Shown here: piece after piece, positions 3,763 to 30,577 of the stretch | Numbering within the stretch: the stretch's first letter is position 1 | Layout: every line of letters starts with the position of its first letter | Assembly: GCA_903915625.1 (NCBI GenBank) | Contig: CAIWTN010000013.1 | Span: 1-38,842 of the forward strand | DNA: 38,842 nucleotides | Reading direction: 5' to 3' | Source: an uncultured Pseudomonadota bacterium | Lineage (GTDB): Bacteria > Bdellovibrionota_B > Oligoflexia > Oligoflexales > CAIYRB01 | Translations under genes and position numbers: made by a program | The notes under the pieces: generated by a model | Databases searched by the model: none | Told to the model about the DNA's origin: nothing | What the model saw: only the letters and a program-made list of their open reading frames with translations

Positions 3763-4266
3763 TCATATTCTGACCACCGCTGTTTGGCGCTGTCTCGCCC
3801 AACGGCACCATGTCACCAGGGTAAACCCGACCATGATGCTGACATCGGCAACGTTGAAAATACCAGTGCGTAGTCCACCAATTCCTACATTGAGGAAATC
3901 GACTACGAAGCCCGAGACGATCCGGTTGAGCACATTGCTGCCACCGCCCGCTAGTATAAGTCCATATCCGATCGTCTCAGCTGCTGTCAGATCATGCTTC
4001 AGGTAAATGAATAACGTCAAGCCGAGTAGTAGTGCGCCGGCCCCAACGCTTAGTAAAAACCAGCGCGAAGAGTCTGGTAGTGAGCTGCCAAGGCCCAGAA
4101 AGGCGCCCACGTTCTCAGCATATTCGAGTCGCAAAGTATTGGCGAAGTAGTGCTGCGGAGCATGATCGCGGAGCACTCTGGCAGCAAATATTTTGGTCGC
4201 TTGATCCCATCCTATGCAGCTGCATAAGGTAACTAAGATGATGAAAAGCCTGTTGCCAGTAGACAT
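3763..4266 (-). CDS. lspA: lipoprotein signal peptidase LspA
   Basis: Prolipoprotein signal peptidase II, an inner-membrane aspartyl protease that cleaves diacylglyceryl-modified prolipoproteins before the lipidated Cys. The 167-residue product has the usual length and four hydrophobic helices. Motifs: DQATK at 21-25, EYAENVGAFLG around 48-58, GGGSNVLNR at 107-115, VVDFLN with catalytic Asp123, and FNVAD with catalytic Asp141. The family usually has an Asp in the NxxDR block; here it reads NVLNR, a mild substitution. The ATG at 4266 is chosen because GAGG lies a few bases upstream and it gives a normal N-terminus; a start at 4305 would add a basic leader. The gene is first in a minus-strand run and overlaps or abuts the aminotransferase gene, so the two are probably co-translated. 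Confidence 0.93.
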   Translation of the reverse strand: MSTGNRLFIILVTLCSCIGWDQATKIFAARVLRDHAPQHYFANTLRLEYAENVGAFLGLGSSLPDSSRWFLLSVGAGALLLGLTLFIYLKHDLTAAETIGYGLILAGGGSNVLNRIVSGFVVDFLNVGIGGLRTGIFNVADVSIMVGFTLVTWCRWARQRQTAVVRI

Positions 4267-4469
4267 ATGAAACCTCGTCCGAAGCCCTCTTACTCTTATC
4301 GGCAAGATTTCTATGTCGTTGAGGTCTGTTTTCTGCCGGACGCCTTCCTCTTCTCATCCTCAGTTGGTAGTAACTTATCTAAATGACAGTGAAAAATATC
4401 TGTGGGGGATGGGTGAGGGGCGCTTTCATTGTGTAAGTAAATGAAATCATTGATTTTATTTGTTTTCTG

Positions 4470-4497
4470 GTGACAATGGCTTTGATCACGCTAGGAT
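4470..4497 (+). promoter_or_regulatory. sigma-70-type promoter for tRNA-Val
   Basis: GTGACA (5 of 6 to the -35 consensus) at 4470-4475, 16-bp spacer, TAGGAT (4 of 6) at 4492-4497. The tRNA 5' end lies 17 bases past the -10, as expected for a short-leader stable RNA promoter. Read by eye, no scoring. Confidence 0.5.
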
Positions 4498-4514
4498 GCA
4501 GCACCTGACCCGAT

Positions 4515-4591
4515 GCGAGTATAGCTCAGTTGGTTAGAGCGCTGCCTTCACACGGCAGAGGTCCTCAGTTCAAATCTGAGTACTCGTACCA
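4515..4591 (+). tRNA. tRNA-Val (anticodon CAC)
   Basis: A complete 77-nt cloverleaf. Acceptor stem GCGAGTA pairs with TACTCGT (first pair G-U), D stem GCTC/GAGC, anticodon stem CTGCC/GGCAG around the loop TTCACAC, which places CAC at positions 34-36 and decodes GUG valine. The T arm is CTCAG/CTGAG with the conserved TTCAAAT loop, and the CCA end is encoded. It is a single tRNA, not part of an array. No Rho-independent terminator with a T tract is obvious right after it. Confidence 0.96.
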
Positions 4592-4728
4592 TATTCATGC
4601 GCACTTATTCCCTCGTTGTTGACAGATAAGCTTTCCGTCAAAACTCTCGCCTATGGCTCGACTCAACAAAGCGTGACGCTTGTGTTGGTTCCTACATATT
4701 TAGATGAAGTTTCATTTTGAAGGTGGAA

Positions 4729-4857
4729 GCGCCGGTCACTTGGTGACCGGCGCGTGTCCGGAGGCCAGAATCATGCCATTCTTGCGGGGGCCTCAATTGG
4801 GGAAGGCCTTAAAATGCAGTGCGATGCAGAAGGTGGCGACACGGCATGATGTCGCCA
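4729..4857. ncRNA. candidate structured RNA or repeat element (three hairpins)
   Basis: Three stable hairpins follow each other. Hairpin 1: an 11-bp perfect GC-rich stem, 4729-4739 with 4743-4753, and a 3-nt loop. Hairpin 2: GAGGCC 4761-4766 pairs with GGCCTC 4789-4794, enclosing AGAAT 4767-4771 paired with ATTCT 4778-4782, with a one-sided bulge at 4783-4788. Hairpin 3: TGGCGACA 4834-4841 pairs with TGTCGCCA 4850-4857. A weaker outer pairing ATGGAC/GTCCAT may extend the structure to about 4921. It matches no RNA I recognise by eye (not tmRNA, RNase P, SRP or 6S signatures). It could equally be a REP/MITE-like element; strand is unknown. Confidence 0.3.
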
Positions 4858-5003
4858 AAGTAGGCACCAGGATGAACTCGGGAATGGACCGTTAGTCACT
4901 CCCTACTTGTATATAGTCCATCGTTAAAATGGGGTGTCGACTTTAGGATTTTTTTAATAACACTAATGCCGATCCTTTGGGTGATTTACAAATATAAACA
5001 TAA

Positions 5004-5024
5004 CCGCCTAGGATATCTAGGCGG
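5004..5024 (-). terminator. hairpin, possible minus-strand terminator
   Basis: CCGCCTAG at 5004-5011 pairs perfectly with CTAGGCGG at 5017-5024 around a 5-nt loop. On the minus strand it is followed by a moderately T-rich stretch, so it may end transcription from the small membrane-protein gene about 110 bp upstream. The T tract is interrupted, hence low confidence. Confidence 0.35.
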
Positions 5025-5131
5025 CTGCATTTGGAGACAATCAGTCTCTAATTATATAATGATTTTTAAAAATGGGCGTTTGTAAGGGCATTTTTATAAT
5101 GCGCCAGCTCAATTTTTAATCAGTCTGCAGC

Positions 5132-5290
5132 TTAGTCGCTAGTCAGCCAACCAGTAACATCCATCACAAACCCTAGAGTGTAGGCAGCGATAATAAAGGG
5201 CGCTACGAGAGCCAATAACAATAGTATTGGCAGCATATGTAGAACATCGACGGGATTCTCGACGCGGAAATCTTCGCGGCTGAACATCAT
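5132..5290 (-). CDS. small single-pass membrane protein, unknown
   Basis: A 52-residue protein starting MMFSREDFRVENPVDVL, with one long hydrophobic helix (about residues 19-41) and a short acidic tail ending in SD. I recognise no family. It looks real because an AAAGG ribosome-binding site lies eight bases before the ATG at 5290 and the composition (charged amphipathic start, one helix, polar end) is that of a small membrane protein. Longer forms from ATG 5314 or TTG 5329 have no visible Shine-Dalgarno. The neighbours (envelope protein and lytic transglycosylase upstream on the same strand) suggest an envelope role, but with a gap of 134 bp co-transcription is not certain. Confidence 0.5.
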   Translation of the reverse strand: MMFSREDFRVENPVDVLHMLPILLLLALVAPFIIAAYTLGFVMDVTGWLTSD

Positions 5291-5424
5291 GAGATCGACC
5301 TTTGAGCTAGGCATAAGAGCTAGGATCAAGCTAAGTGACCATTAGGAAACCTAACTTTAGCAGCCTTAAAAGGCAAATTCAATCTGCCCGCTTGCCAAAG
5401 ACATAATCATGCATTCCATCGGAA

Positions 5425-6543
5425 TCAGGCCGCGCTTCCCCGATATTTGGTCCGAAACTCTGCCGATAGAGCGTTAAATTTTCGCAGGAGCTCGTCATCA
5501 GCAAGATACTTAGGCCCCCAGTAGGCGCTCTCTGTTAGCCAATCGGCTTCGGACAGTGCAAAATGATTCTGTAAATTAGCCAAGGTATCTGCACCCTGGT
5601 CAATCCAGGCACTTAGTGCCACCTGGATTTCTACAAATAATTCGAAGGTGCAGTGGGGCACCAGTGGTAACTGCGCAGTCTGCTCCGACCCGGGGGAATT
5701 TGCTAGCTGTGGTGGCGTGACAGCGGTGCCATCCGCACTTAATGCCGCAGTGTCGACAGCAGAGTCGGGCGAGCTGCTGAGGTCATCTGAGTCCGTCAAC
5801 GATTTTGCCGTATTCGTGATGTCTGTTTGCCGACGCCCACGCGATTTTGAGCTGGGCGTTGTCGACACCGATTGGCGTTCTGATTGGCGCCGATTAACCA
5901 GCGTCTGCTGCCGCCGAGTTAAATACATGTAGCATGCGCCTGCTGCCATCAAAAGAGCGAGTAATATCAGGCTGTATGAGGGTGAATTTGACTCGTCCAC
6001 AACGATGCGGTCGGGGTCTGTGTCCGCATCCGTCATTGCACGGTTCGGTCGACGGGCGAGCGGTTTGGCAGCTAGGCTCTTAGTTGCCGCTGTATTGAGC
6101 TGTTGCGGCTGGGGTGCGGCCACCGCTGGCACAGTCATTTCGGGAGCTGGGGACGTTGGTTCTGGCATTGCCGCTACACTTTTTGGCTTGGCCTTAAGTA
6201 CAGGCGCAGTGTGACTGCTGTGGCGGACCTTTTTTGGGGTCTTGGTGGGATGCCAAGCTGCAGTCTTTTTGACTCTATCGGTTCGTTCGACGCGGGGGGC
6301 ATGCCAAGTTGCCTGTTGTTTAGACGAAGTCGTTCGATGCTTAGAGGAATGCGACCTTTTCTTCGTGCTGTGCTTACCATGTACTTTCTTTGTCGGCTTT
6401 TTCTTACTTGCTGCGGCAAGAGTCATACTTTCGGAAACGGCGTTGGCAGCTTTAATTTCGGCGAGACTAGGGGCTGCAGAAAGTGCAAAACCCGCGAGAA
6501 TCGCGAAATTGAATCGTTTGAGTTTTTGTTTTAATTGCCGCAT
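5425..6543 (-). CDS. Lys/His-rich single-pass envelope protein, unknown
   Basis: A 372-residue protein with no family I can name. Architecture: Sec-type signal peptide (residues 1-28, ending PSLA); a strongly basic, Lys/His/Ser/Thr-rich low-complexity stretch (about 46-122) containing two imperfect repeats with AWH/TWH; a Pro/Ala-rich segment (123-165); a transmembrane helix (about 189-208) followed by RR; a polar acidic linker; and a predicted helical C-terminal domain (about 297-368) with W313, W335, W342 and Y346. The topology would place the basic part in the periplasm and the C-terminal domain in the cytoplasm. The C-terminal pattern of spaced Trp/Tyr helices resembles short domains seen in myxobacterial proteins, from memory only. 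Its neighbour upstream is a lytic transglycosylase, so peptidoglycan or LPS binding by the basic region is possible. Confidence 0.7.
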   Translation of the reverse strand: MRQLKQKLKRFNFAILAGFALSAAPSLAEIKAANAVSESMTLAAASKKKPTKKVHGKHSTKKRSHSSKHRTTSSKQQATWHAPRVERTDRVKKTAAWHPTKTPKKVRHSSHTAPVLKAKPKSVAAMPEPTSPAPEMTVPAVAAPQPQQLNTAATKSLAAKPLARRPNRAMTDADTDPDRIVVDESNSPSYSLILLALLMAAGACYMYLTRRQQTLVNRRQSERQSVSTTPSSKSRGRRQTDITNTAKSLTDSDDLSSSPDSAVDTAALSADGTAVTPPQLANSPGSEQTAQLPLVPHCTFELFVEIQVALSAWIDQGADTLANLQNHFALSEADWLTESAYWGPKYLADDELLRKFNALSAEFRTKYRGSAA

Positions 6544-29312: not shown

Positions 29313-29453
29313 CTGTTCATCAAGACCGGTTGAGGGATAGGCCCGACGACGCCGGGGCAACCACGCAAGTTTATGAAAGTAAATTGCGTATGGTGCCAAG
29401 TCCTGCGGTAGCAACCCGGCGTAAGCCAGGAGTGCAAACCGGAAGATGAGCAG
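29313..29453 (+). promoter_or_regulatory. SAM riboswitch (SAM-I clan) upstream of metX
   Basis: P1 is CTGTTCATC at 29313-29321 with GATGAGCAG at 29445-29453 (one G-U). The core has the SAM-I signatures in order: ATCAAGA, GAGGGATAGGCCC (P2 with kink-turn region), CCGGGGCAACC, a P3 hairpin ACGCAA/TTGCGT (29363-29388 region), and GGTGCCAAGTCCTGC (J3/4-P4), closed by CAGGA. SAM-I fits best; SAM-IV and the I/IV variant are not excluded by eye. A good -35 (TTGACA, 29278-29283) lies upstream, but I see no -10 at normal spacing. It should repress the methionine operon when SAM is abundant. Confidence 0.93.
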
Positions 29454-29527: not shown

Positions 29528-30577
29528 ATGGTGGAGTTGGCAGGGGAAAGAGTGGAGTTTGGTGCGCGTGATGTTTGGCGCTCACCGTCACCATTAAGTG
29601 GCACAATTCATCTGCCGCAGCGCCCTTTCGAACTTGATTGTGGCCTGAACCTTCCTGAAGTCCAAGTTGCATATGAGATTGTCGGTCCCAGCAACGCGCC
29701 GGTGGTCGCAGTGTTGGGTGGTATTTCTGCGACCCGCTTTGTGGCCGGCGGAATTGATAATTCCGCAGCAAGACCAAAGGGATGGTGGAGTGATCTCTGT
29801 GGGCCTGGTCAGGCTCTAGACAGCAACAGATATCGCATATTGTCTTGGGACTTTCTTGGTGGCAATGGTGCGACCACTGGACCTCGCTCATCAGAATACG
29901 CAGGTAAAACATTTCTCGACATCACCACTGGAGATCAAGCTCGTGTGCTTGCTGAGCTATTGCCTATACTTGGTATTTCGAGCTTGCATGCGCTCGTCGG
30001 CGCTTCCTACGGCGGTATGATAGCCTTAGCTTTTGGAGCCCGATTTCCCAATCTAGTAAAGCGGCTGTTGGTCATTAGTGCTGCCCATCGCAGTGCGCCA
30101 CTGGCCGTGGCTTGGCGAACTATACAACGGCAAATTGTTAGCTTTGGATTGTCTGAAAATCGAGGAGGCGAAGCGCTGGCTTTAGCTCGCGCCTTGGGAA
30201 TGGCCACCTACCGTACTCCGGATGAATTTGCGCAACGCTTTGGTGGAACGCGCTTGGACGCTCATGATCCCGATTCATTTCCGATTTGGGACTATCTGCG
30301 CGCTCGTGGTGAGGACTATGTCAAGCACATGGATCCACATGCATTTCTCTGCCTGTCTAGGTCTATCGACTTGCATGAAGCGGACCCGCAGAAAATCTGT
30401 GTGCCAACTACAGTAGTGGCCGTGCGTCAGGACCAATTGGTGCCGCTGGCTCTACTGGAGGAGTTGGCTGATGCGCACGCTGGATCATGTGAGCTTCAGG
30501 TCATTGATTCACTTTATGGACATGATGCCTTCTTAAAAGAGCCAACATTTTTTTCCCGTTTATTGCGATGTTTATAG
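29528..30577 (+). CDS. metX: homoserine O-acyltransferase, MetX family
   Basis: An alpha/beta hydrolase-fold enzyme activating homoserine for methionine synthesis. The 349-residue product has the nucleophile S160 in GASYGGMIALAFG, oxyanion residues in VLGGISATR, the segment SWDFLGGNGATTGP, and the Asp and His of the triad in VRQDQLVPL and YGHDAFLKE. The nucleophile motif and length resemble the shorter MetXS (Xanthomonas-type) enzymes that use succinyl-CoA, so acetyl versus succinyl donor is open. I use ATG 29528, which directly follows the riboswitch-controlled Shine-Dalgarno; a start at 29477 would lie inside the platform. metB and hom follow. Confidence 0.92.
   Translation: MVELAGERVEFGARDVWRSPSPLSGTIHLPQRPFELDCGLNLPEVQVAYEIVGPSNAPVVAVLGGISATRFVAGGIDNSAARPKGWWSDLCGPGQALDSNRYRILSWDFLGGNGATTGPRSSEYAGKTFLDITTGDQARVLAELLPILGISSLHALVGASYGGMIALAFGARFPNLVKRLLVISAAHRSAPLAVAWRTIQRQIVSFGLSENRGGEALALARALGMATYRTPDEFAQRFGGTRLDAHDPDSFPIWDYLRARGEDYVKHMDPHAFLCLSRSIDLHEADPQKICVPTTVVAVRQDQLVPLALLEELADAHAGSCELQVIDSLYGHDAFLKEPTFFSRLLRCL

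Follow-up and report, generated by a model that had tools for sequence, protein, structure and literature searches.

The window considered here is a stretch of 38,842 nt (GenBank assembly GCA_903915625.1, contig CAIWTN010000013.1) from an uncultured bacterium of the Oligoflexales, whose genome is referred to as G000. Near the start of the window a tRNA-Val (CAC) gene lies on the plus strand (4515-4591), followed by a hairpin-rich region without annotated genes. On one flank of the locus is lspA, located on the minus strand at 3763-4305, while the other flank carries a gene for a membrane-anchored protein, a gene for a lytic transglycosylase and then fliG; these names were assigned by reading the translations and are to be taken as presumptive. 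An intrinsic terminator on the minus strand (5002-5026) closes the preceding minus-strand gene. Also on the minus strand, at 5425-6543, is a gene whose protein is of low complexity in its N-terminal part and conserved in its C-terminal part, with a membrane segment predicted by eye. Elsewhere in the window, a SAM riboswitch (RF00162) is found on the plus strand at 29314-29452, with 79.5 bits against a gathering score of 44.4.

The region following the tRNA had been described in the initial annotation as a cluster of nested hairpins denser in pairing than random sequence. The individual stems are indeed present: a perfect 11-bp stem (4729-4739 with 4743-4753), a two-part stem of 6 and 5 bp in which GAGGCC/GGCCTC (4761-4766 with 4789-4794) encloses AGAAT/ATTCT (4767-4771 with 4778-4782), and an 8-bp stem (4834-4841 with 4850-4857). 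These named stems stand side by side rather than nested. The weaker outer pairing that had also been mentioned finds no certain match; the long-range helix backed by comparison is a different one, P1, in which 4902-4908 pair with 4858-4864. As to the density of pairing, the excess over random sequence is real on the minus strand (4720-4925, z -4.52, 0 of 200 shuffles as good) and weak on the plus strand, the one first read (4700-4960, z -2.07, 6 of 200 shuffles as good). Since the conserved core of G000 taken alone, without the 11-bp stem, scores far weaker (z +0.23 on the plus and -1.92 on the minus strand), much of the excess of the whole region must stem from the 11-bp stem. In fact, comparison with related genomes splits the hairpins into two distinct features, the 11-bp stem (4729-4753) and a conserved block (4761-4956).

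The block occurs at the same syntenic site in four of the six sampled species of the genus (G000, G003, G004 and G005), and is absent from the other 52 genomes examined of the phylum (58 in total, the same 58 that represent the class). A BLASTN search with 4600-5130 returned a single copy in the own genome at E<=0.001, and in 96 genomes, the own included, clear matches were limited to three of the genus's five other species. The match in G005 spans nearly the whole query with 89% identity, and those in G003 and G004 (73% and 72%) are confined to query positions 162-357, corresponding to 4761-4956 of the window, so that the portion shared by the four species does not include the 11-bp stem. Other genomes gave weak BLASTN matches that were taken as chance, among them a 21-base match in G001 which, once aligned, does not extend. 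A covariance model (R1), built from the four loci and searched against the 58 genomes of the class, recovers exactly these four loci at E<1e-47. Three weak matches of the model (E 0.009-0.07, in G007, G044 and G049) are not the RNA; in G044 the promoter part alone matches, and the stretch in G049 is AT-rich and misses the core. In G001 and G002, which belong to the same genus, a different sequence lies downstream of tRNA-Val(CAC) and the element is absent, and near the neighbouring transglycosylase gene of G001, G002, G006, G010 and G007 no model match was better than E 0.4. A wider scan of contigs with a loose GC-rich pattern, in which at least 118 listed stretches, together with 12 viral stretches and three earlier loci, were checked with the model, yielded among the stretches listed two that the model recognises, again the G005 and G004 loci; none of the 12 viral stretches is real.

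All four copies adjoin tRNA-Val(CAC) and have lspA on one flank, and on the other the genes for the membrane-anchored protein and the transglycosylase, followed by fliG in G000 and G005. The protein encoded at 5425-6543 is likewise kept in all four loci and is also found in G001 and G006. At gathering scores Rfam identifies the tRNA alone at the locus, and the block is not spanned by any ORF of at least 80 aa, in agreement with the earlier statement that no protein gene or known RNA accounts for it. Within 4400-5400, at E values up to 10, the best match other than the tRNA is PtaRNA1 (22.8 bits, threshold 47), and no Rfam riboswitch, including the c-di-GMP type of merRNA, is matched. In the open-access literature searched, of which coverage was partial, no account of this RNA was found.

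The minus strand is the most likely location of the structured RNA. Pairing counts by themselves do not decide between the strands, because 138 of 143 cells over all helices pair on the minus strand against 137 of 143 on the plus. The consensus folds of the four sequences differ more clearly: RNAalifold gives -29.99 on the minus strand (z -3.56, none of 300 column shuffles as good) versus -24.69 on the plus (z -1.19, 37 of 300 as good). When the core sequences of the relatives are folded singly in the same way as that of G000, against dinucleotide shuffles and without the 11-bp stem, the z values are -2.36 (G005), -1.88 (G003) and -1.96 (G004) on the minus strand and -0.46, -1.99 and -1.21, respectively, on the plus. 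At the level of single pairs, three cells of the hairpin P2 form G.U pairs on the minus strand and are unpaired on the plus, while two cells in P1 and P3 pair on the plus strand only. Furthermore, the four-base loops of P3 read GUAA in G003 and GAAA in G004 on the minus strand; both are of the GNRA type, and loops of this type appear on the minus strand only.

Read on the minus strand, the fold opens with the P1 domain (4858-4908), in which the 7-bp helix already mentioned encloses an inner hairpin (4880-4903), with one or two bases near 4902 contested between the two. In the hand alignment, three of the pair positions in P1 show compensatory changes when one pair of species is compared with the other, and G004 has one A.C mismatch there. 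It is followed by the P2 hairpin (4834-4857), corresponding to the 8-bp stem, with all of its cells paired and two further compensatory positions, and by the short hairpin P3 (4816-4827), whose loop has six bases in G000 and G005 and which in G005 is weak, with one pair broken. The two-part stem forms the P4/P5 hairpin (4761-4794), the portion of the block with the highest conservation: all of its 34 bases are identical in three of the four species and one base differs in G004, a near-invariance that leaves no covariation to read. Its loop, GGCAUG (4772-4777), is exactly complementary over six bases to CAUGCC in the loop of P2 (4843-4848), and both sides are invariant in all four species, hence without covariation; by inspection, the two loops are likely to form a kissing contact.

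Covariation, which the initial annotation had suggested as a check, gives a divided answer in a sample of four sequences that fall into two close pairs. In the hand alignment five pair positions have changed on both sides, those in P1 and P2 described above. Fitting the alignment to the model puts P1 out of register in two species, G000 and G005, and here three pairs have changed on both sides, a count reached in 159 of 500 shuffles; in the same four sequences 87.5% of cells are paired (25 of 500 shuffles as high) and the covariation score is equalled in 32 of 500. These measures stand out little from shuffled alignments and clearly from slid structures.

On the minus strand the conserved right edge of the block reads CTAAAG-N16-ACGATG in all four loci, which in the window corresponds to a predicted sigma-28 (FliA)-type promoter at 4946-4919, with C-TAAAG (TAAAG at 4941-4945) and ACGATG (4919-4924) as the -10 element, differing from CCGATA at two of six bases. 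This sigma factor was pointed to by the weak model match in G007 (E 0.066), which lies immediately 5' of a flagellin gene and contains CTAAAG-N15-ACGATG. A promoter matrix was derived from 18 distinct N16 sites of the genus, which do not include the promoter under study and were found by a TAAAG/CCGATA pattern, so that the matrix forces both elements. With this matrix the promoter ranks 1 of 77,630 positions in the window, and its counterparts rank 2 of 39,748 (G005), 1 of 39,488 (G003) and 2 of 24,040 (G004); over ten loci of the genus, those of G003, G004 and G005 included, 10 of 294,396 positions score as high as the G000 promoter or higher. With an earlier matrix, which contained repeated sites, it came first among 77,592 positions of the window and also took first place in each of three shorter loci. 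For the simpler pattern TAAAG-N17-CGAT, 0.35 occurrences are expected in the window and two are found; the second is on the minus strand at 30159-30184.

Sites of this kind are abundant in the genus. TAAAG-N13..18-CCGATA is found 65 times in G000, 114 in G003, 73 in G005, 65 in G001, 81 in G004 and 71 in G002, against 22, 16, 16, 19, 18 and 11 occurrences, respectively, of the reversed control pattern, that is 469 versus 102 over the six genomes. This large excess suggests a wide sigma-28 regulon, and the factor may control more than flagella in the genus, as has been reported for Bdellovibrio in the portion of the study cited here (PMC3627812). In 34 matches from 30 loci, a few of them repeated between overlapping loci, the spacing was 16 in 21 cases, 15 in seven and another value in six, so the N16 found at the right distance before the RNA in all four loci is also the commonest spacing of the genus. 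The flagellin genes themselves offer less support: in 11 of 34 upstream regions the top consensus score was at least 9, compared with about 14% at 9 or above for Markov-resampled sequence, and in a second, overlapping set 6 of 30 regions had any match, one of them far upstream only, leaving 24 of 30 flagellin upstream regions with no sigma-28 match. Each of the six genomes of the genus has one flagellin gene with TAAAG-N15-CCGTTG about 105 nt before its start, assuming that the six genes are orthologous. The window also contains one of the eight Flagellin_N matches of the genome (18621-19031, minus strand).

Concerning the boundaries, the upstream minus-strand terminator is called in G000, G003 and G004, and none is found in G005 by the consensus rule. 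With a terminator lying before it on the same strand, the promoter appears to be insulated and to belong to the RNA itself. On the other side, the 11-bp stem, to which we assign no strand, had been counted as part of the RNA cluster and turns out not to belong to the conserved core; it separates the tRNA from the proposed RNA and may serve there as a shared 3' boundary. It is kept in G005; in its place G003 and G004 have an unrelated palindrome, GTGTCAGACAC...GTGTCTGACAC, followed on the plus strand by a T run, apparently the terminator of tRNA-Val. At the site of the 11-bp stem no T run is found on either strand in G000 and G005, nor is a good U-run terminator present at the minus-strand 3' end in these two genomes.

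Several other explanations can be weighed against these data. Dense hairpins between genes, and a neighbouring palindrome that differs between species, are what a dispersed repeat or a mobile hairpin element would bring to such a site; nonetheless, the single genomic copy contradicts a REP or MITE for 4761-4956 and the position is syntenic in all four loci, making this origin extremely improbable. A small protein gene is very improbable as well: G003 has an open plus-strand frame of 126 aa over the block, but no reading frame is kept in the four species on either strand, and the gaps between species are not in multiples of three.

The remaining alternatives concern the strand and the nature of the conserved product. 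A plus-strand RNA, co-transcribed with tRNA-Val or processed from its transcript, would agree with the constant position of the block behind the tRNA in the four loci, with the nearly equal pairing of most helices on that strand and with the two cells that pair there only. Against it, the palindrome and T run of G003 and G004, interposed between tRNA and block, leave no room for a promoter, the plus-strand consensus fold does not exceed that of the shuffles, and the conserved far edge reads as a promoter of the opposite strand, so that we hold it to be decidedly unlikely. Alternatively, the conservation could belong to DNA, with the hairpins incidental to a promoter that drives either a functionless minus-strand transcript or the 5' leader of lspA, which is located downstream on the same strand in G000 and in the other three loci. 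Such a leader would have to cross tRNA-Val in antisense direction as well as a strong hairpin, and conserved DNA alone does not account for minus-strand structure beyond column shuffles, nor for the P4/P5 hairpin being the best conserved part; this reading seems to us quite unlikely.

We therefore favour, as the probable explanation, that the hairpin cluster marks a predicted lineage-specific, sigma-28-dependent gene for a structured small non-coding RNA (sRNA) on the minus strand; that it is an RNA gene of this strand has fairly good support, and the gene is probably transcribed. The original idea of a new structured RNA behind tRNA-Val thus stands in that the element is structured, syntenic, present in single copy and outside any Rfam family, and changes in that it would be encoded convergently on the opposite strand and have its own sigma-28-type promoter. 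The putative transcript would start near 4912, a few bases after the -10 element, and end at the hairpin that separates it from the convergent tRNA-Val gene, giving about 185 nt (4912-4725, minus strand) with both ends estimated from these landmarks. It would fold into the 5' domain formed by P1 and its inner hairpin, then P2, P3 and the near-invariant P4/P5, whose loop could kiss that of P2.

Judging from its promoter, the sRNA would be made together with the late flagellar genes, and its most likely action would be in trans. The unpaired stretches ACUCCUC (G003 and G004), UCAUCCU (G000 and G005) and GGCCUnCCCC (all four) are conserved and C-rich or contain CCUC/UCCU, and could pair with mRNAs at their G-rich ribosome-binding sites; the compact fold from P2 to P4 may protect the RNA or bind a protein. 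A bolder proposal is that of a new class of structured RNA, organised around the near-invariant kissing-loop pair of P2 and P4/P5 and expressed with the flagella, which would act as a ligand- or protein-binding sponge of the flagellar phase, along the lines put forward for merRNA, rather than as a plain antisense RNA. The conservation of P4/P5, with one change in 34 bases over four species, exceeds what pairing needs and so fits a binding site, yet we consider this version unlikely.

The RNA would represent a new family within a known kind. In the part of the Bdellovibrio bacteriovorus study cited here, intergenic sRNAs of the attack phase are described, three of them, APsRNA3, 6 and 7, with FliA motifs, and the attack-phase promoter motif is given as TTAAG-N16-CCGATA (PMC3627812). 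The present RNA is likewise intergenic and structured and its TAAAG-N16-ACGATG is much like that motif, a comparison that concerns the promoter and not the RNA sequence. The merRNA of the same species is, according to that part of the study, found only in its own lineage, a restriction that the RNA described here shares; unlike the latter, which matches no Rfam riboswitch, merRNA holds a c-di-GMP riboswitch (PMC3627812). In Escherichia coli, four sigma-28-dependent sRNAs, UhpU, MotR, FliX and FlgO, are reported in the cited sections to derive from mRNA UTRs (PMC10578931), whereas here a terminator precedes the promoter and the RNA would have its own intergenic gene. Similarly, Campylobacter jejuni has a FliA-dependent sRNA, CJnc170 or FlmR, which affects flagellar length as judged by overexpression in the passages cited (PMC11187230). 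With the E. coli and C. jejuni sRNAs, as far as these sources describe them, the comparison is one of control by the flagellar sigma factor, through a promoter that is predicted here; by that promoter, the RNA may work like these named examples. If transcribed, it would be a conserved sRNA, linked to the motile phase through its promoter, in a lineage represented by draft genomes, and it would add to the few sigma-28-dependent sRNAs described a further one with a predicted strand, start and fold.
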